A stretch of 50,157 nt of DNA from positions 1 through 50,157 of the IMG/VR virus record IMGVR_UViG_3300028844_003150; one strand, 5' to 3'. Shown here in pieces: positions 13,560 to 47,113 of the stretch. Under the pieces are notes generated by a model. That model worked only from the letters and a program-made list of their open reading frames with translations. It was not told the origin of the DNA and searched no databases. The translations under genes were made by a program, and so were the position numbers. Numbering within the stretch: the first letter of the stretch is position 1; every line of letters starts with the position of its first letter. The DNA comes from a virus.

Positions 13560-15711
13560 TAGTCTTGTCCTCTGTCTTGTTATCGACCAGCTTCAGTTTA
13601 GCATTACGCTCTTCTGCTACGGCTTTGTTACGAATCTCCAACTCTTTCAAACGCAGCTCGTCGTGCTTGATAGCGATCTCATCACGCTTGATCTCCAGTT
13701 CTCGGTCGATCTTATACTTATCCAACTGTATCTTCGCAACCGCTTCTTCCCGATCAGCCTCTGCTTCAGCCAATCGAATCTCGTCGTCATTAGCCTTACC
13801 AGCCTGCCCATCCGGGTCTGCCAGCGCAGTCTGCTGAGCACGTACGAGGTTGAGTGCAGCCTCAGACTCGATCTTCTTCTGCTCAGCCATGGCTTTCCTG
13901 TTCTCAAGCTGCTTGGCCTGCAGTTCCAGTTCTGCCAGTTGTTTCTGCAATGCGGCTTCCTCCTCGGAAGGTCCACCGGCCATCTTCGCAGCCAACTCAC
14001 CCTTGCGTGCCAGATGCGAATTCTCAACCAGTACCTCGTCAGGAATAGCAATGCCAAGTTCACGCAGCTGCACAGCTTGCTCGAACTGGGTCTCCTCGAA
14101 GGTCTCGCGTGCAGGTACGCTGGTGACAACCAGACTGTACTCACCCAGCGTCAGGTCACGAGCGATCTCCCCTTCCGGTGAGACCTCGTTAATCATCATT
14201 GTCTCGTCCTGCTCACCGGGTGCATTACCTGTGATATGGATAAGTCGTGGTTCCGTTTTTCCCGTTCTTCCGTCGTGGACGGACGATTGGTCTGGTTGAG
14301 AACCTGCTCGACCCGCAGGAGCTGTACAACAAGGTGCGCTCACAGGAATTACATATTGTGAATACCACCGCAAACAGCGGCTGGAAGGTATGGAGTCAGA
14401 TGCCATGCTGATCTCTTTCAGGTCTTCTGCAGAGTTGTAGGAAATCCTGTCCATGCCGGTAGGTACGGTGTTCGGGGTGATCTTGTCCAAGCCGTCCATG
14501 TCGTTCAGCTCAGCGATCAACCCGGTTTCTGCGCCACGCTCTTCCAGATCCTCGATGCTCATGTTCTGCAGGGCACCGGTCTTCACCTTCCAGCCGCTGT
14601 TTGCGGTGGTATTCACAATATGTAATTCCTGTGAGCGCACCTTGTTGTACAGCTCCTGCGGGTCGAGCAGGTTCTCAACCAGACCAATCGTCCGTCCACG
14701 ACGGAAGAACGGGAAAAACGGAACCACGCCAATCGTCCGTCCACGACGGAAGAACGGGAAAAACGGAACCACGGTGAAATGTTTATACGGGGACTCCTCG
14801 TTGTGCACCATCACGTCATCGATAGTCACAGTCCACTTGATGCACTCGGTCTTGCGCTTGATGATGCTGACTTCGAACTCTTGCAGGATCAATTGGATCT
14901 TCTCTCGTGGCATCCCGTCCGGAATAACCCGAGTCTCGCCAGAGATCATGTCAACGAAGTGCTCCTTCATCTGGATCTGCTTATGTTGCCGTTCCAGCTG
15001 ACGCCAGCGCCGGTTGTACTTCGAATTGTCTTCCGGGAAGCGGTGCCCCTCACCCGCGAAGGTATCCGGGCGGGTATCCATGAAGTCATACCCGATGTAC
15101 CGGTCAGAACTGGTTTTCGCCCCCAGTTCCTGCGAAGCCCGTTTGCCGTACAGCATCTCGATGTCGTTCAAACTGAGCCATTTACTCAGAAACACGTCCT
15201 TCCAGCCGTCCGGGTCGTACTCTTCCGCGTCCGGGTCGATGACCACATTGCGCGGATTGCACAAACTGACGTCCACTTCACCAAAAATGTTGGTATCGAA
15301 GTTCATCCGGGCGTCGAAAAAGCCGCGAGAGGTGATTACGCCGTCCGCGAATACCTCTGACTCGATGTAATGGGTGTTATTGGCATTCCCGATCTGGATG
15401 AAAACCTTCTGAAGTGCGTCCGCAGTCTCTTGAACGCCGTTTTTGGTCGCTTTGAAGCTGATGTCGGCCTGATTATTCAGCTGCTCACCGAAAATTGCCG
15501 CCGCAGAGGGAAGAACTTTGTTGAATGTCAGCGCAGGACGCCGCTGGCGGGCCAATTTCGCCTTCGCATCCGGGTCCCACTGCTCACCAGCGAAGAAATT
15601 TTCGCATACTCGCGCCTTGGCTGAGTATAACGTGTGTCCGTTGTCCCTACTATAGACATACCGGTCCAGTTGTTCCTGCACGGTTGCGTAATCACTTGTC
15701 GATATGCCCAT
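13543..15711 (-). CDS. Portal protein, internally rearranged
   Basis: 722 residues open throughout. Residues 1 to about 440 are a normal P22/N4-type portal (NPRNVVIDPDAEEYDPDGW; FRRGRTIG; LLDPQELYNKVRSQELHI; ISMASDSI). The C-terminal part resumes at PRLIHITG and ends in a long Glu/Lys/Ala coiled coil. Between them, where the family has a conserved SGV-rich clip/stem region of some 80 residues, lie about 48 residues encoded by an inverted copy of 14585-14728. Upstream, VVPFFPFFRRGRTIG occurs twice in tandem. A functional portal with this insert is hard to imagine. Either the sequence is an assembly/amplification chimera or the genome is defective. It overlaps the scaffold gene by 17 bases. Confidence 0.85.
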   Translation of the reverse strand: MGISTSDYATVQEQLDRYVYSRDNGHTLYSAKARVCENFFAGEQWDPDAKAKLARQRRPALTFNKVLPSAAAIFGEQLNNQADISFKATKNGVQETADALQKVFIQIGNANNTHYIESEVFADGVITSRGFFDARMNFDTNIFGEVDVSLCNPRNVVIDPDAEEYDPDGWKDVFLSKWLSLNDIEMLYGKRASQELGAKTSSDRYIGYDFMDTRPDTFAGEGHRFPEDNSKYNRRWRQLERQHKQIQMKEHFVDMISGETRVIPDGMPREKIQLILQEFEVSIIKRKTECIKWTVTIDDVMVHNEESPYKHFTVVPFFPFFRRGRTIGVVPFFPFFRRGRTIGLVENLLDPQELYNKVRSQELHIVNTTANSGWKVKTGALQNMSIEDLEERGAETGLIAELNDMDGLDKITPNTVPTGMDRISYNSAEDLKEISMASDSIPSSRCLRWYSQYVIPVSAPCCTAPAGRAGSQPDQSSVHDGRTGKTEPRLIHITGNAPGEQDETMMINEVSPEGEIARDLTLGEYSLVVTSVPARETFEETQFEQAVQLRELGIAIPDEVLVENSHLARKGELAAKMAGGPSEEEAALQKQLAELELQAKQLENRKAMAEQKKIESEAALNLVRAQQTALADPDGQAGKANDDEIRLAEAEADREEAVAKIQLDKYKIDRELEIKRDEIAIKHDELRLKELEIRNKAVAEERNAKLKLVDNKTEDKTNEQTG
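14246..14389. repeat. 144-bp inverted repeat inside portal gene, arm 1
   Basis: This stretch is the exact reverse complement of 14585-14728, with a 195-bp spacer between. The flanking bases on both sides do not continue the match. Read in the portal frame it gives antisense-derived residues (SSRCLRWYSQYVIP) that belong to no portal family. Confidence 0.95.
14585..14728. repeat. 144-bp inverted repeat inside portal gene, arm 2
   Basis: This is the arm in native portal orientation (encoding the RTIGLVENLL to GWKV segment). Its upper end at 14728 falls exactly on the junction of the 45-bp tandem repeat, which links the two rearrangements. Confidence 0.95.
14684..14773. repeat. 45-bp tandem duplication in portal gene
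   Basis: Two perfect adjacent copies, 14684-14728 and 14729-14773. The duplication is in frame and adds 15 residues (VVPFFPFFRRGRTIG) to a segment that family members carry once. Confidence 0.95.
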
Positions 15712-41027: not shown

Positions 41028-41423
41028 ATGAGTGATGAAAAACAGGAGGTCGCTCCCACAGGGCCTCCTGTCCAACATACTTGGGTCGTTTGTGACGTTG
41101 GCAATTTCCATACTGAGTACGAGTGCACTAAGTGTGGTACTCGTACCTGCGTAGCACCTGAAGATACTCTATTCGAACCCCTACCCGGATTATGTTCAAT
41201 GAATAACCCAGATTTAGTTAATCATCCACCACATTACACACAACATCCATCAGGTGTGGAATGCATTCAAATTACAGAACATATGGGGTTCAATCTTGGC
41301 AACGTCGTAAAGTACGCATGGAGATGCGATCTCAAGCACGATGCTATTGAAGATTTGAAAAAGGCCCGTTTTTATTTAGAACGGGAAATTGAAAAACGGG
41401 AGAAACAAGCGCATGGCCGTTAA
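41028..41423 (+). CDS. DUF3310 protein with N-terminal Cys pair
   Basis: 131 residues. Residues 62-125 (NHPPHYTQHPSGVECIQITE, FNLGNVVKYAWRCDLK, DLKKARFYLEREIE) are a standard DUF3310 domain, annotated in some phages as a nucleotide-kinase-like small protein without proven activity. The first 60 residues add a YECTKCGTRTC Cys cluster, likely a metal site. The stop overlaps the DHH gene start. Confidence 0.8.
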   Translation: MSDEKQEVAPTGPPVQHTWVVCDVGNFHTEYECTKCGTRTCVAPEDTLFEPLPGLCSMNNPDLVNHPPHYTQHPSGVECIQITEHMGFNLGNVVKYAWRCDLKHDAIEDLKKARFYLEREIEKREKQAHGR

Positions 41424-42231
41424 AGTTTTTTATCATGCTAATTGCACCGATGGTTCCGGTGCAGCCTTAGCTGCATTCATTTCCATGGGAGATACCGCAG
41501 AGTACATCCCAGTCCAGTACAACATGCCTATGCCTGACGTTGGACCAAGCGACGTTATTTACATAGTTGACTTCAGTTATTCATACGACCAGTTGATCGA
41601 GCTGGGTAATAAGGTAGCGAAGGTCGTTGTACTCGATCATCACAAAACAGCAAGACAAGCACTGGAACATATAGACCACCCAAACATAACGGTTCAGTTC
41701 GACATGGAACAATCCGGAGCCGTTCTTACGTGGAAGTATTTCCATCCAGACCGTGCAGTTCCCCCTTTGCTCAGCCACATTCAAGATCGTGATTTGTGGC
41801 GCTTCAATATGAAGGGAACGAAAGAGATCCATAGAGCATTGGGTATGTACCCCGATTGGATAGACTGGGCGCAGTTTCTGTTCGAGGTGGGTCAGCTAAT
41901 CCCTCTTGGCGCTGCGATCATTAAATTTCTCGATGTACAAATCGACAGGATCATTTCCCACCCACCCCGTGAGTTCTTCGCTACTGATGAAATAGTACCG
42001 ATGTACAACATACCGGGGTTTTTAATATCTGATGCGTGTGACGCAGCACTCAGGAAGTACCCTGAATGCCGCTATGCCGTTGGATACATCCACTTGCCTG
42101 ACAGGATGCTCTATTCTCTCCGCTCCCGACAGGGATCTGGTGTAGATGTGGCAGAGATTGCTTTGCGTTATGGCGGCGGGGGGCATGAAAATGCTGCCGG
42201 TTTCCGTATACTACATGACCAGAAAGAGTAG
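41413..42231 (+). CDS. DHH/DHHA1-family phosphoesterase
   Basis: 272 residues from ATG 41413 (GGGAG ten bases upstream). N-terminal HANCTDGSGAALA (D13), VIYIVDFSYS and VVVLDHHKTA give the DHH metal-binding site, and VAEIALRYGGGGHENAAGFR is the DHHA1-type substrate motif. The family cleaves phosphodiester or pyrophosphate bonds in short oligonucleotides, cyclic dinucleotides or polyphosphate-like substrates. In a phage it could recycle nucleotides from degraded host nucleic acid or remove a defence signal; which applies cannot be read from sequence. Confidence 0.85.
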   Translation: MAVKVFYHANCTDGSGAALAAFISMGDTAEYIPVQYNMPMPDVGPSDVIYIVDFSYSYDQLIELGNKVAKVVVLDHHKTARQALEHIDHPNITVQFDMEQSGAVLTWKYFHPDRAVPPLLSHIQDRDLWRFNMKGTKEIHRALGMYPDWIDWAQFLFEVGQLIPLGAAIIKFLDVQIDRIISHPPREFFATDEIVPMYNIPGFLISDACDAALRKYPECRYAVGYIHLPDRMLYSLRSRQGSGVDVAEIALRYGGGGHENAAGFRILHDQKE

Positions 42232-42235
42232 GTAT

Positions 42236-42318
42236 AAAGAAACTCACTGGTCTGCACCTACCGTAAGGCGTGCTAGGACTACATGCATTGATCCTCTCCA
42301 TGGGCAGTGAGTTTCTTT
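42236..42318 (+). promoter_or_regulatory. 13-bp inverted repeat ending at a start codon
   Basis: AAAGAAACTCACT (42236-42248) is perfectly complementary to 42306-42318, which abuts the ATG of the next gene at 42319. The 57-base loop contains a smaller GCAC/GTGC and CCTA/TAGG pairing. The stem would bury the ribosome site of the next gene, so a translational switch or a small RNA with its 3' end here is plausible. Confidence 0.55.
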
Positions 42319-42636
42319 ATGAATACTGACGAACTACGAGATAGGCTCAGACGAGCTGAACAATACAAACCAATGTTGGACAGGGCACAGCACCTAGCAT
42401 TGGATCTATCAAAACTGCTGGACAAACGCGACGAAGAAATAGCGCGTCTACGCAGATCCCAGAACATCGTTCATCTAACTCCAATGATCTTGGAGAAAGA
42501 ACGCCAATCTATACGAATTGAAATATTCCAGAAGGTCTTCAAGCTGGTTCGCATGTGGAAAGACAATCATGCCAAACTGGAACAGTTACTGAAGGAAATG
42601 ATTGCGTACGAGAAGAACCATGACGGGAGTACATAG
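42319..42636 (+). CDS. Coiled-coil protein, unknown
   Basis: 105 residues from ATG 42319; a GTG at 42307 is possible. It is highly charged and helical (MNTDELRDRLRRAEQYKPML; LSKLLDKRDEEIARLRRSQN). No Shine-Dalgarno stands before the start; instead the repeat arm lies there. It overlaps the HTH gene by 17 bases. Function unknown. Confidence 0.65.
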   Translation: MNTDELRDRLRRAEQYKPMLDRAQHLALDLSKLLDKRDEEIARLRRSQNIVHLTPMILEKERQSIRIEIFQKVFKLVRMWKDNHAKLEQLLKEMIAYEKNHDGST

Positions 42637-42802
42637 TAAATTCACCAGAGAGGAAATTAACTTGATTCGTGCAGCCGCCGCAGAGAGGACACGATTACGA
42701 AAAGAAGCCCTGAAACTTAGCAATGAAGAACTGGCGAAGAAGATGGGTACCTCCCCCACCACGATTAGTTCTATAATCAATTACTACCATCCCTACAAGT
42801 GA
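42620..42802 (+). CDS. Small HTH DNA-binding protein
   Basis: 60 residues, with a basic start (MTGVHSKFTREEINLIRAAA) and an HTH (LSNEELAKKMGTSPTTISSI) in which the recognition helix is clear. Its last codons (NYYHPYK) and stop are encoded by copy 1 of the 28-bp direct repeat. It may regulate early genes or bind the TGTACGATC boxes. Confidence 0.7.
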   Translation: MTGVHSKFTREEINLIRAAAAERTRLRKEALKLSNEELAKKMGTSPTTISSIINYYHPYK

Positions 42803-42807
42803 GCGCA
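42780..42807 (+). repeat. 28-bp direct repeat, copy 1 (left of glutaminase cassette)
   Basis: Identical to 43989-44016. It contains the last seven codons and the stop of the HTH gene plus five bases. The cassette of two genes follows directly. Confidence 0.97.
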
Positions 42808-42824
42808 CAGGAGAAAATAAACTC

Positions 42825-43046
42825 ATGATGACACCCGAGGAACTTAGGCAGCGCATCGTTGACCACGCAGTTGCTGATGATAAAGATCACCAGACAATTG
42901 TTCAGGTTATGGACCAATTTGTTATCGATCACCCCGACGGCGACTTTGCAGCCATCCGCAGACTTGTGGTCAATCATGCGGAAACTACTGATGCGAGTCA
43001 CCAGCGGCTGGTCAAAGCACTGGACAGGCTCCTAGAACAACAGTGA
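42825..43046 (+). CDS. Small helical protein in the glutaminase cassette
   Basis: 73 residues behind AGGAG. It contains two similar halves: RIVDHAVADDKDHQTIVQVM and RLVVNHAETTDASHQRLVKA share R-I/L-V-x-x-H-A-x-x-x-D-x-x-H-Q-x-x-V, so it is an internal duplication of about 30 residues. The stop overlaps the GTG start of the glutaminase by four bases, so both are made together. Function unknown; it may be a partner or regulator of the enzyme. Confidence 0.75.
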   Translation: MMTPEELRQRIVDHAVADDKDHQTIVQVMDQFVIDHPDGDFAAIRRLVVNHAETTDASHQRLVKALDRLLEQQ

Positions 43047-43987
43047 AATTTGACAGCCCAGTTTTCAAAGGAATGCTGGAGGACGCGTTCGAGCTGGGAC
43101 ATGGTATCACTGGCGGCAAGGTTGCTGACTATATCCCGGCATTGGCCCTCGCTAACCCGGAAGACTGGGCCTTTACAATACATCCATTGATAGATGCGCC
43201 ACCGCAAAACTTCGGTCAAGTGGATGAATACTTTACGATACAGAGTATTTCTAAAACATTTTCTTATTCGCTGGCGCTAACGGAAGTGGGAAGAGATGAG
43301 GTGCATAACCGAGTGGGCGCTGAGCCCAGTGGCCAAGCGTTCAATGGTATTGCTCTGATGATTGACGGTCGCCCACACAATCCGATGGTCAACGCCGGTG
43401 CCATTGCAGTCACAGGTTGTTTGCATGACCGTTTCGGAAGCAGTGCAGTAGATGAGGTGGTCAGTTTGTTTTCAGAGTTTGCTGATGAGCAGCTGGTAAT
43501 AGACCAGAATGTCTATGAAAGTGAGCTTTCGAGTGGGCACGTTAACCTCGCCATCGCTCATCTGCTAAGAGCCAAGGGGGTCCTTACGACGGACCCCCTA
43601 AAGGTAATTGAATTGTATTTTTCAATCTGCTCACTGCTGGTTAACACACGTATCCTCGCGCGCATGGGTGCAGTGTTGGGTAGAGGTGGCAAAGCAGAAG
43701 ATGGCCACTATGTTTGCGAGGTGGAAAGCGCGACCAGCGCACTGGCGCTAACTCTAAGCTGTGGGATGTACGACCGGAGCGGCACTTGGATTCGTGACAT
43801 TGGGCTGCCGACAAAAAGCGGAGTGAGTGGTGGATTGCTTTGTATTGTCCCCGGAAAGATGAGTATGGCTTTCTGGTCGCCTCCTATCGATGAATTCGGG
43901 AATACAGTTCGAGGAATGGCAGCTTGCCAAAATTTGGTGACAGACTTGGATCTTCACCTCTTTGGACCGGGTTCGATATTTGACTGA
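43043..43987 (+). CDS. glsA: Glutaminase (serine beta-lactamase-fold type)
   Basis: 314 residues from GTG 43043, full length for the bacterial GlsA/YbaS family. It hydrolyses L-glutamine to L-glutamate and ammonia. All expected residues align at nearly the numbering I recall for E. coli YbaS: Y30 (KVADYIPALA), nucleophile S68 and K71 (QSISK), N117 (NPMVNAGAI), E161 and N168 (YESELSSGHVNLA), Y192, Y243 (GMYDRSG) and V261 (KSGVSGG). EPSGQAFN and the C-terminal LGLP/KSG loop are also present, so the enzyme is probably active and cytoplasmic. It sits in a direct-repeat-bracketed cassette, an unusual gene for a phage. Confidence 0.95.
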   Translation: MKFDSPVFKGMLEDAFELGHGITGGKVADYIPALALANPEDWAFTIHPLIDAPPQNFGQVDEYFTIQSISKTFSYSLALTEVGRDEVHNRVGAEPSGQAFNGIALMIDGRPHNPMVNAGAIAVTGCLHDRFGSSAVDEVVSLFSEFADEQLVIDQNVYESELSSGHVNLAIAHLLRAKGVLTTDPLKVIELYFSICSLLVNTRILARMGAVLGRGGKAEDGHYVCEVESATSALALTLSCGMYDRSGTWIRDIGLPTKSGVSGGLLCIVPGKMSMAFWSPPIDEFGNTVRGMAACQNLVTDLDLHLFGPGSIFD

Positions 43988-43988
43988 T

Positions 43989-44016
43989 ATTACTACCATC
44001 CCTACAAGTGAGCGCA
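43989..44016 (+). repeat. 28-bp direct repeat, copy 2 (right of glutaminase cassette)
   Basis: Starts two bases after the glutaminase stop and ends at the ATG of the next gene. Identity with copy 1 over 28 bases with unrelated flanks marks the cassette boundaries. Confidence 0.97.
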
Positions 44017-44193
44017 ATGGAAAACTTCATTAAGCTGTTGGAGACCACCGATTCCGTGAAGATGTATATCACGCGGGGCGGAGAATTTTTCATAGAGATA
44101 TGGACACTCCAAGGAAGTTATTTTCATGTACAGAGCATGTCGCTGGAGGCCGCAATAGTGGACGCAATAGAGAGACTTCCCCCGACAACATGA
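44017..44193 (+). CDS. Small protein, unknown
   Basis: 58 residues from ATG 44017; a GTG three codons earlier lies inside the repeat. It reads MENFIKLLETTDSVKMYITR, then FFIEIWTLQGSYFHVQSMSL, a helix-strand-helix protein. Before the cassette inserted it probably followed the HTH stop by five bases. Overlaps the next gene. Confidence 0.65.
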   Translation: MENFIKLLETTDSVKMYITRGGEFFIEIWTLQGSYFHVQSMSLEAAIVDAIERLPPTT

Positions 44194-44438
44194 CAGAAAA
44201 AGGTGAACCAATTGAAGCGATCTGGAAAGAAGCCTTTGAGACCGGCCATGCTTGCAGGCTGGTTGGGCGCACGCTCAAAAGGGGGTCCTTCACAATGGCT
44301 TGGTTTTCTTGTAACGATGGTCGCGTGTTTCCTCTGTCCAAAGCCGATCTCCTCCGGTACAAACCCGACGCAAAGGTCTCAAAAACATACAAAAAGCCAA
44401 AAATGAATGCTAGACTCTCCGCTGGCTCAAAACCATGA
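44190..44438 (+). CDS. Small basic protein, unknown
   Basis: 82 residues, MTEKGEPIEAIWKEAFETGH to a basic tail (KTYKKPKMNARLSAGSKP). It contains a RTLKRGSFTMAWFSCNDGRV beta segment. The four-base overlap with the previous stop implies coupling. No family recognised. Confidence 0.65.
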   Translation: MTEKGEPIEAIWKEAFETGHACRLVGRTLKRGSFTMAWFSCNDGRVFPLSKADLLRYKPDAKVSKTYKKPKMNARLSAGSKP

Positions 44439-44448
44439 GGGCAGTGAG

Positions 44449-45222
44449 ATGTATAAATTTCTGGTATCGATACTGGTATTCATAATTGGATTTGTAGTTA
44501 CCCAACGAGTTCTCGCTTGGGATCACACAGTAATAATGTCTCCGTTTGAAGGGTCTTCTTATACAGTCCCATTACCAGAAGGACGAGCGTGTATTTACGT
44601 TACAGACTGCACAGAGAACATCCTCACAACCCCAGCAGTTCCATCGACTCCTCCTCCAAGTTCACCGACTTTAATATCAGAAATACCTAATATAGTTGGA
44701 ACTGAAGGGTGGTCTTTTTTTGATGTGGTGGACCGTTCAGAGTGGGCTATCGAAGTGGACGACGAAGAAACTTCCGACGCCACCAAAGCAGACCGATACC
44801 AGAAAGCACACGCTATTGATGACGACCCAACCACGATCTGGCACACCAGATGGGTAGATCCTGCGACTCCCATGCCACACTGGGCCAAGATTGATCTGGG
44901 GAGAGAGGCTTGGGTTGATTCGATGATTATCACCCCCCGGCCTTGGACTGGCCCAGACTGCGCTTACTGCGACACGAGCAACGTCAAAGGTTACGAAGTC
45001 TGGGTGAGTAAGGACGATAACATCTGGGCGAGGGTTGCTGCTGGGGAACTGGTATTTGTGGAGGGGGCACCACAGACAATCAAATTCTCAATCCCAAATC
45101 TAGTCAGGTACGTGCGACTGGATATTCTAAGTGCTTCTGGGGACACAGCAGCTGTGACACTTGGAGACATTCAAATTACTGAATCCACCAAAGACATAGT
45201 CATAACTGGGGGTGGTGTGTGA
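44449..45222 (+). CDS. Secreted/anchored discoidin (F5/8 type C) protein
   Basis: 257 residues from ATG 44449 (GAGGG upstream). The N-terminus MYKFLVSILVFIIGFVVTQRVLAWD is a signal peptide or anchor. A Pro-rich linker (about 65-80) leads to an F5/8C domain (about 95-250) with AIDDDPTTIWHTRWVD, HWAKIDLGREAWVD, KGYEVWVSKDD and VRYVRLDIL. Such beta sandwiches bind sugars or surfaces. It is unusual that a phage early/middle operon encodes an exported adhesin-like protein; it may coat the host surface or join the virion. A partner with the same fold lies on the opposite strand at 46197-47033. Confidence 0.8.
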   Translation: MYKFLVSILVFIIGFVVTQRVLAWDHTVIMSPFEGSSYTVPLPEGRACIYVTDCTENILTTPAVPSTPPPSSPTLISEIPNIVGTEGWSFFDVVDRSEWAIEVDDEETSDATKADRYQKAHAIDDDPTTIWHTRWVDPATPMPHWAKIDLGREAWVDSMIITPRPWTGPDCAYCDTSNVKGYEVWVSKDDNIWARVAAGELVFVEGAPQTIKFSIPNLVRYVRLDILSASGDTAAVTLGDIQITESTKDIVITGGGV

Positions 45223-46196: not shown

Positions 46197-47033
46197 CTAT
46201 TCAATTACAGTTGGTGGAAGTGGTCGTGCGCCTACAATAACTGGAGTACCCAGTACATACAACTCATCTACAGAAGCCTGATTCCCACCATCCTGTTCGC
46301 TGAGTGCGACGAACTGGATATACCTCGCTTTCGTAGTGGGGAACTCAATGGTGTGAAGCTGATCGCCGGGAGGGAACGTCCCACCAGCTACCTGTGTCCA
46401 TCCTACGCCATCCATGCTGACCTGAAACGAATAGTCTTTGACTACAGCATTACCGCCACTAGCTCTTGGTTGCTGCTGAAAAGCAGTGAGTTGGTAAATA
46501 CTACCCATGTCTATCGCGATAGCATGAGGGAACTGGGCTTCAGTTGGAGTGTACCGTGAGTGCCATATGTCACCCTGACTTGTACAGGGAGTACCACGAT
46601 CAAAAGCACACTCAGGTGGCATCAACCAGTTGTCCTTTTCGTAACTGGTGTAGGCTAGGACAGTCCACTCATCAGCAGGGATGTCTGGATCAAGTGGGGG
46701 CGGGGGTATAATGACTACCCCATCAGTCTCATCCTTACAGCTTGTCTCGCTGTCTCGGCTAACCCTACCCCCAGTATCTACAGTCCGTAGGACAATACAA
46801 TACTCACCGTTTTCAAGACCAACCAAGGAAATGCTAGACTCAGTGCCGCCCAGATCATCAGGTTGTCTGACGCCATTGATATAAACTTCATAGTGTGAAA
46901 TCTCCTCGTTGGTTAGTGGTGTGTCATCTTCTCGCGCAACTGGTGGGTCGAACGTCCACCCAACAGCAGCGTACAATGGGAAGCAAATGAACAGGAGCCA
47001 TATCGCTAATAAAATAGCGGCTACCTTGGTCAT
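46197..47033 (-). CDS. Secreted FN3 + discoidin (F5/8 type C) protein
   Basis: 278 residues from ATG 47033; the frame opens 9 codons earlier. A signal peptide (MTKVAAILLAIWLLFICFPLYA) is followed by a fibronectin-III-like domain (about 23-105: HYEVYINGVRQPDD, YCIVLRTVDTGGR), a Pro-rich linker (IIPPPPLDPDIP), then an F5/8C domain (about 125-265: DIWHSRYTP, HAIAIDMGSIYQL, KDYSFQVSMDGVGWTQV, ARYIQFVAL). It shares layout with 44449-45222. The ending PPTVIE resembles the ending PPVIVE of the next exported protein. It may act on the host surface or the virion. Confidence 0.8.
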   Translation of the reverse strand: MTKVAAILLAIWLLFICFPLYAAVGWTFDPPVAREDDTPLTNEEISHYEVYINGVRQPDDLGGTESSISLVGLENGEYCIVLRTVDTGGRVSRDSETSCKDETDGVVIIPPPPLDPDIPADEWTVLAYTSYEKDNWLMPPECAFDRGTPCTSQGDIWHSRYTPTEAQFPHAIAIDMGSIYQLTAFQQQPRASGGNAVVKDYSFQVSMDGVGWTQVAGGTFPPGDQLHTIEFPTTKARYIQFVALSEQDGGNQASVDELYVLGTPVIVGARPLPPTVIE

Positions 47034-47113
47034 AATTGCTTCAACTTGTCCCATTGCCAATCCGGTGTGCAGAACAGATTACAGCGAGGTTCGCAGAACT
47101 GTATCCCGCGCAT
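47030..47113 (-). CDS. Possible Cys-rich peptide (27 aa)
   Basis: From ATG 47113 the frame reads MRGIQFCEPRCNLFCTPDWQ WDKLKQL and stops in an ATGA overlap with the discoidin gene start. The same frame stays open upstream with two more Cys. The overlap argues for a coupled peptide, but the start signal is poor. Confidence 0.35.
   Translation of the reverse strand: MRGIQFCEPRCNLFCTPDWQWDKLKQL

Follow-up and report, generated by a model that had tools for sequence, protein, structure and literature searches.

The stretch of DNA analysed here (the window, 50,157 nucleotides) comprises bases 1-50157 of the 67,281-bp IMG/VR record IMGVR_UViG_3300028844_003150. It carries a glutaminase gene, which is located together with a small ORF between two copies of an exact direct repeat. 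The locus is composed as follows (G004 is a related phage of 59.5 kb, terminase 72% identical; L124 belongs to a sister phage):

41389..42231, + strand: DHH phosphoesterase, a conserved phage neighbour (62% in G004)
42307..42636, + strand: flanking phage ORF, 109 aa, whose G004 orthologue adjoins that of the ORF at 44100
42602..42802, + strand: 66-aa helix-turn-helix ORF, its 3' end formed by the left repeat
42780..42807, + strand: left repeat copy (28 bp, direct, exact), made up of the final codons and the stop of the helix-turn-helix ORF and of 5 further bases
42808..43988, + strand: insert between the repeats, 1,181 bp, with the 73-aa ORF and the glutaminase gene
42825..43046, + strand: 73-aa companion ORF on the insert
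43043..43987, + strand: glutaminase gene with a GTG start; its 314-aa product consists of the catalytic domain only (Pfam, NCBIfam, alignment, fold)
43989..44016, + strand: right repeat copy (28 bp, direct), which ends immediately 5' of the ATG at 44017
44100..44438, + strand: flanking phage ORF, 112 aa, with orthologues in G004 and L124
45338..46012, + strand: sigma-factor-like gene downstream, a phage neighbour common to L124

The 66-aa ORF resembles the helix-turn-helix parts of phage regulators, of an HNH endonuclease family and of ParB-type proteins, and stands alone at the insertion point. The sigma-factor-like gene is flanked by genes for two F5/8 type C (discoidin-like) proteins (44407-45222 and 46197-47060) on opposite strands.

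The ORF at 43043-43987 contains no internal stop codons. Its product matches PF04960 over the whole profile (1-286 of 286; E 8.4e-93; 311 bits vs a cut-off of 27) and passes the cut-off of the NCBIfam glutaminase A equivalog TIGR03814 (292.5 vs 255.4 bits). Furthermore, its AlphaFold2 model (mean pLDDT 94) has the glutaminase (beta-lactamase-like) fold, and the best solved structural neighbours of this model are human and mouse glutaminase and the Micrococcus glutaminase (TM 0.90-0.93). The original prediction of a glutaminase is thus borne out, as Pfam, the NCBIfam cut-off and the predicted fold agree, and profile matches and model together confirm the ORF as a member of the serine-dependent glutaminase family (PF04960/TIGR03814). 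The SxxK dyad S68/K71 as well as Y30, N117, E161, N168, Y192, Y243 and V261 are all present in order (nine of nine), and all of them fall into invariant or near-invariant columns of an alignment with 33 homologues; the active site, which had been called intact, therefore does appear so. Alignments were used to pair these residues with human GLS, in which the equivalents are S286/K289, Y249, N335, E381, N388, Y414, Y466 and V484. Hydrolysis of glutamine by the phage protein is predicted from these features and is likely. Within the coding sequence, positions 43575-43599 form a perfect 9-bp hairpin (AGGGGGTCC-TTACGAC-GGACCCCCT; folding z of -3.9 against shuffles).

The best bacterial matches (one genome each from ~85,000 species) are 39-46% identical to the phage glutaminase among the matches listed, and the scan needs exact motif matches, so relatives nearer than those listed are possible. 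In the collections searched, no close bacterial donor was found among the matches listed. The phage protein forms the longest end branch in the tree (~2 changes per site) and lies in no supported bacterial group; therefore, no donor is named. In 80 bacteria, 45 columns show a conservation of 98% or more; the phage protein agrees with 41 of them despite its long branch, and this suggests constraint. With the threshold lowered to 90% of the same bacteria, it deviates at 15 conserved columns. The departures at the most conserved columns (G52A, R167V, M237T and A257T) are found in none of the 80 bacterial proteins, and A257T adjoins K258 within the PxKSGV motif; these exchanges could change kinetics or substrate. 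The changed near-invariant sites, including the one beside K258, and the longest branch of the tree speak for a protein which has kept the glutaminase fold but acts on another amide substrate or has a non-catalytic role. We regard this as improbable, as every catalytic and substrate-binding residue is kept and the equivalog cut-off of TIGR03814 is passed.

Most of the nearest bacterial proteins are considerably longer than the phage protein: among the matches listed, 68 of 80 have at least 390 aa, and the remaining 12 consist, judged by length, of the catalytic domain alone. All five longer bacterial proteins that were scanned carry STAS and/or cNMP-binding domains C-terminal to the glutaminase domain. 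A C-terminal regulatory domain is absent from the phage glutaminase, which may accordingly be free of some regulation. With respect to composition, the third-base GC of the gene resembles that of its neighbours, its strand skew is mildly atypical, and its codon-use score is, by a small margin, the lowest among the genes compared.

The source of the DNA is a tailed phage encoding terminase, portal, head, polymerase, primase, helicase and exonuclease proteins as well as rIIA/rIIB. The first 144 bases of the record are repeated directly at its end, and a contig from another sample (99.5-99.9% identity along most of its length) reads across the joined record ends; the phage genome (67.1 kb) is therefore closed. 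Among cultured phages, the KPP25-type Pseudomonas phages and Aeromonas phage phiA008 come nearest (terminase identity 37-40%). Membership in Kochitakasuvirus (KPP25) was rejected, because the core genes are not close enough (TerL ~39%, DNA polymerase 37% identity to the KPP25-type phages), and these phages are distant kin. Of the phage proteins scanned, none was recognised as an integrase, and a lytic lifestyle is therefore likely. The glutaminase gene has phage genes on either side in this closed circle, i.e., in a bona fide phage genome, and its predicted carriage by a phage stands.

A misassembled host contaminant was considered from the beginning. The second-sample contig stops short of the glutaminase, and the gene is covered by a single assembly. 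Moreover, the same record probably contains a local assembly fault in the portal gene: the 144-bp segments 14246-14389 and 14585-14728 of the portal ORF are exact inverted copies, and the near-identical contig (L104) and G004 agree on a different sequence at 14246-14389 (a real inversion is the other possible cause). Both points would fit bacterial or other-phage DNA misjoined into the genome. However, the same 28-bp phage sequence is found at both ends of the insert, the glutaminase start overlaps the stop of the 73-aa ORF (GTGA), the protein sits on the longest branch, and its bacterial relatives are at most ~46% identical among the matches listed. Host contamination is accordingly unlikely in the light of the sequence, and a misjoined assembly is extremely improbable as an explanation of the locus.

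The 28-bp repeat was never matched by chance in 100 shuffles of the window. The insert does not appear to be a transposon or homing element, since it lacks a mobility gene; its contents are the 73-aa ORF and the glutaminase gene, and no transposase, integrase or endonuclease gene is present in it. If the repeat were closed, two phage genes would remain with normal spacing. G004 lacks the glutaminase, and in this phage the ORFs orthologous to those at 42307 and 44100 lie next to each other; the 66-aa helix-turn-helix ORF was not found at the matching place there, so that the exact empty site is not seen in G004. For the 73-aa ORF, profile and phage-protein searches gave neither a family match nor a phage match. 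Its TGA stop codon overlaps the GTG start of the glutaminase gene (GTGA), and the two genes may be translationally coupled. Promoter and terminator scans gave results no better than chance.

Two readings of this insert can be put forward. According to the first, which we offer as a tentative possibility, the glutaminase and its 73-aa partner would be a small mobile cassette of phages, which moves in and out by recombination at the 28-bp site, spreading a single-domain glutaminase among phages and resetting the glutamine level of the host, possibly under control of the partner. According to the second, the gene would be chance cargo, captured recently, useless to the phage and about to be lost through recombination at the same repeat. 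The flanking repeats, the absence of the gene from the related phage and the slightly atypical codon use are compatible with such cargo. Nevertheless, we consider it very improbable, as the open frame and the conserved sites have been kept on a very long branch and a close bacterial source was not found among the matches listed.

Bacteria, animals and giant viruses are known to possess glutaminases. Among 50,697 GenBank phage records, only four glutaminase matches were obtained, and none of the four is a verified phage locus. Two of them are Acinetobacter-type records filed as 'Acinetobacter phage MD-2021a': in CAKLQH020000010.1, the one that was viewed, the 31-kb stretch around the glutaminase contains Acinetobacter-type housekeeping genes only; CAKLQF020000014.1 has the same glutaminase match. 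The other two are unverified fragments with bacterial-type genes. PHROGs and BFVD gave no glutaminase match. When 2.9 million IMG/VR contigs were scanned twice with profiles, 15 distinct contigs with a glutaminase match were obtained. Eight of these (L010-L014, L018, L021 and L022) were set aside, as the gene lies at or near the contig edge and the sequence there is probably host flank. Probable phage glutaminases, judged by their neighbours, are those of L009 (located between the genes for tail tube and tail chaperone), L015, L017, L019 and L020 (adjoining tail genes) and L023 (partial, 5' of the tape measure gene). L015, L017, L019 and L020 also encode a weakly Dyp-type-peroxidase-like protein, and L015 a cytochrome P450-like one; these genes perhaps represent a block of bacterial cargo. 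These other probable phage glutaminases of IMG/VR look like separate captures. Grouping the window protein with L016 and the L015 type in one clade was rejected (p 0.0009), and grouping it with L009 was borderline (p 0.056). Around the glutaminase genes of L009, L017 and L019, exact repeats did not exceed 12 bp. The useful loci came from alignment-based scans; viral scans with a single sequence found no relatives for the glutaminase and for rIIB, and one contig each for the DHH and F5/8 type C proteins, and a glutaminase was absent from both contigs. In the open-licence literature, no paper on a phage glutaminase was found and, giant viruses aside, nothing relevant. The gene had been called unusual for a phage, and the absence of verified cases from the phage records and from BFVD, with a few probable ones in IMG/VR, agrees with that; phage glutaminases are very rare, yet not unique to this record.

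The glutaminase gene is located on the strand of the replication genes, opposite to the structural genes, and this position suggests that it is expressed in the early or middle phase. Altogether, the phage probably makes a working single-domain serine-lysine glutaminase of the GlsA/GLS type together with its replication-side genes, and this enzyme, which lacks the C-terminal domains that most of its nearest relatives in bacteria possess, would hydrolyse host glutamine in the course of infection. The protein would be produced from the same strand as the replication-side genes, its start overlapping the stop of the 73-aa gene, and would convert glutamine of the host to glutamate and ammonia by the Ser68/Lys71 mechanism. 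Most likely, the phage would benefit from the additional glutamate and ammonia, from which amino acids and nucleotides could be synthesised in the infected cell. An auxiliary metabolic gene, as originally proposed, appears to be the best reading; its location among phage genes in a closed phage genome supports the proposal, and the function in infection is put forward as a prediction. No other genes of glutamine, nitrogen or acid metabolism were found among the phage proteins scanned.

It had also been suggested that the enzyme silences nitrogen control by GlnD/PII. This is the wrong direction, because low glutamine signals nitrogen starvation, and falling glutamine turns the PII/NtrC nitrogen-starvation response on. 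This response could itself help the phage by raising nitrogen uptake. An active enzyme might therefore be used for signalling or antagonism rather than for supply, if by draining glutamine it made the host read nitrogen starvation (PII-UMP, NtrC on) or stalled glutamine-dependent steps of the host or of a rival phage. Glutamine is indeed both substrate and nitrogen signal (textbook knowledge), and the lack of the C-terminal domains of most relatives would suit such a use. We nevertheless consider it unlikely: no regulatory partner was identified, none of the five proteins scanned with PADLOC matched a defence family, and a glutamine drain would also cost the phage's own nucleotide synthesis. 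Apart from supply, which we prefer, ammonia release against acid, as in the E. coli YbaS system (PMC6250119), could conceivably be a benefit.

The metabolic genes reported in phages to date mostly concern photosynthesis, carbon, nucleotides, sulphur and phosphate. A glutaminase would give a phage direct action on the main nitrogen donor of the cell and on its nitrogen signal, and with a phage glutaminase at hand it becomes testable whether a phage gains from lowered glutamine. Furthermore, the repeat-flanked insert represents a simple case for how a metabolic gene enters a phage. The glutaminase family and viral metabolic genes as a kind are already known; new is a glutaminase, probably active as judged by its sequence, in a closed phage genome on a repeat-flanked insert.

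Among known systems, bacterial GlsA proteins with STAS and/or cNMP domains (Synechococcus L024, Verrucomicrobiota L030/L060) share 42-46% identity in the catalytic domain and the same active site with the phage protein; they comprise 609-617 aa with their C-terminal domains, whereas the phage protein has no domain besides the catalytic one. Human and mouse GLS (KGA/GAC) and the salt-tolerant Micrococcus glutaminase, the closest in predicted fold, are 35-38% identical and possess further domains absent from the phage protein; human FNKL corresponds to FNGI in the phage enzyme. Glutaminases of the E. coli YbaS/YneH type (YbaS structure, PDB 1u60) are also single-domain proteins of ~310 aa with the same residues, and the copies of L010-L014, which are single-domain proteins encoded at contig edges, are ~36% identical to the phage protein. 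Mimiviridae and other Nucleocytoviricota encode glutaminase, transcripts of which are present in metatranscriptomes (PMC9270025, PMC8407384); these enzymes are likewise virus-encoded, but belong to viruses of eukaryotes. The other probable IMG/VR phage glutaminases are likewise found beside phage structural genes, but in other locations and lineages, and for that of L009 the identity to bacterial proteins reaches 65%.
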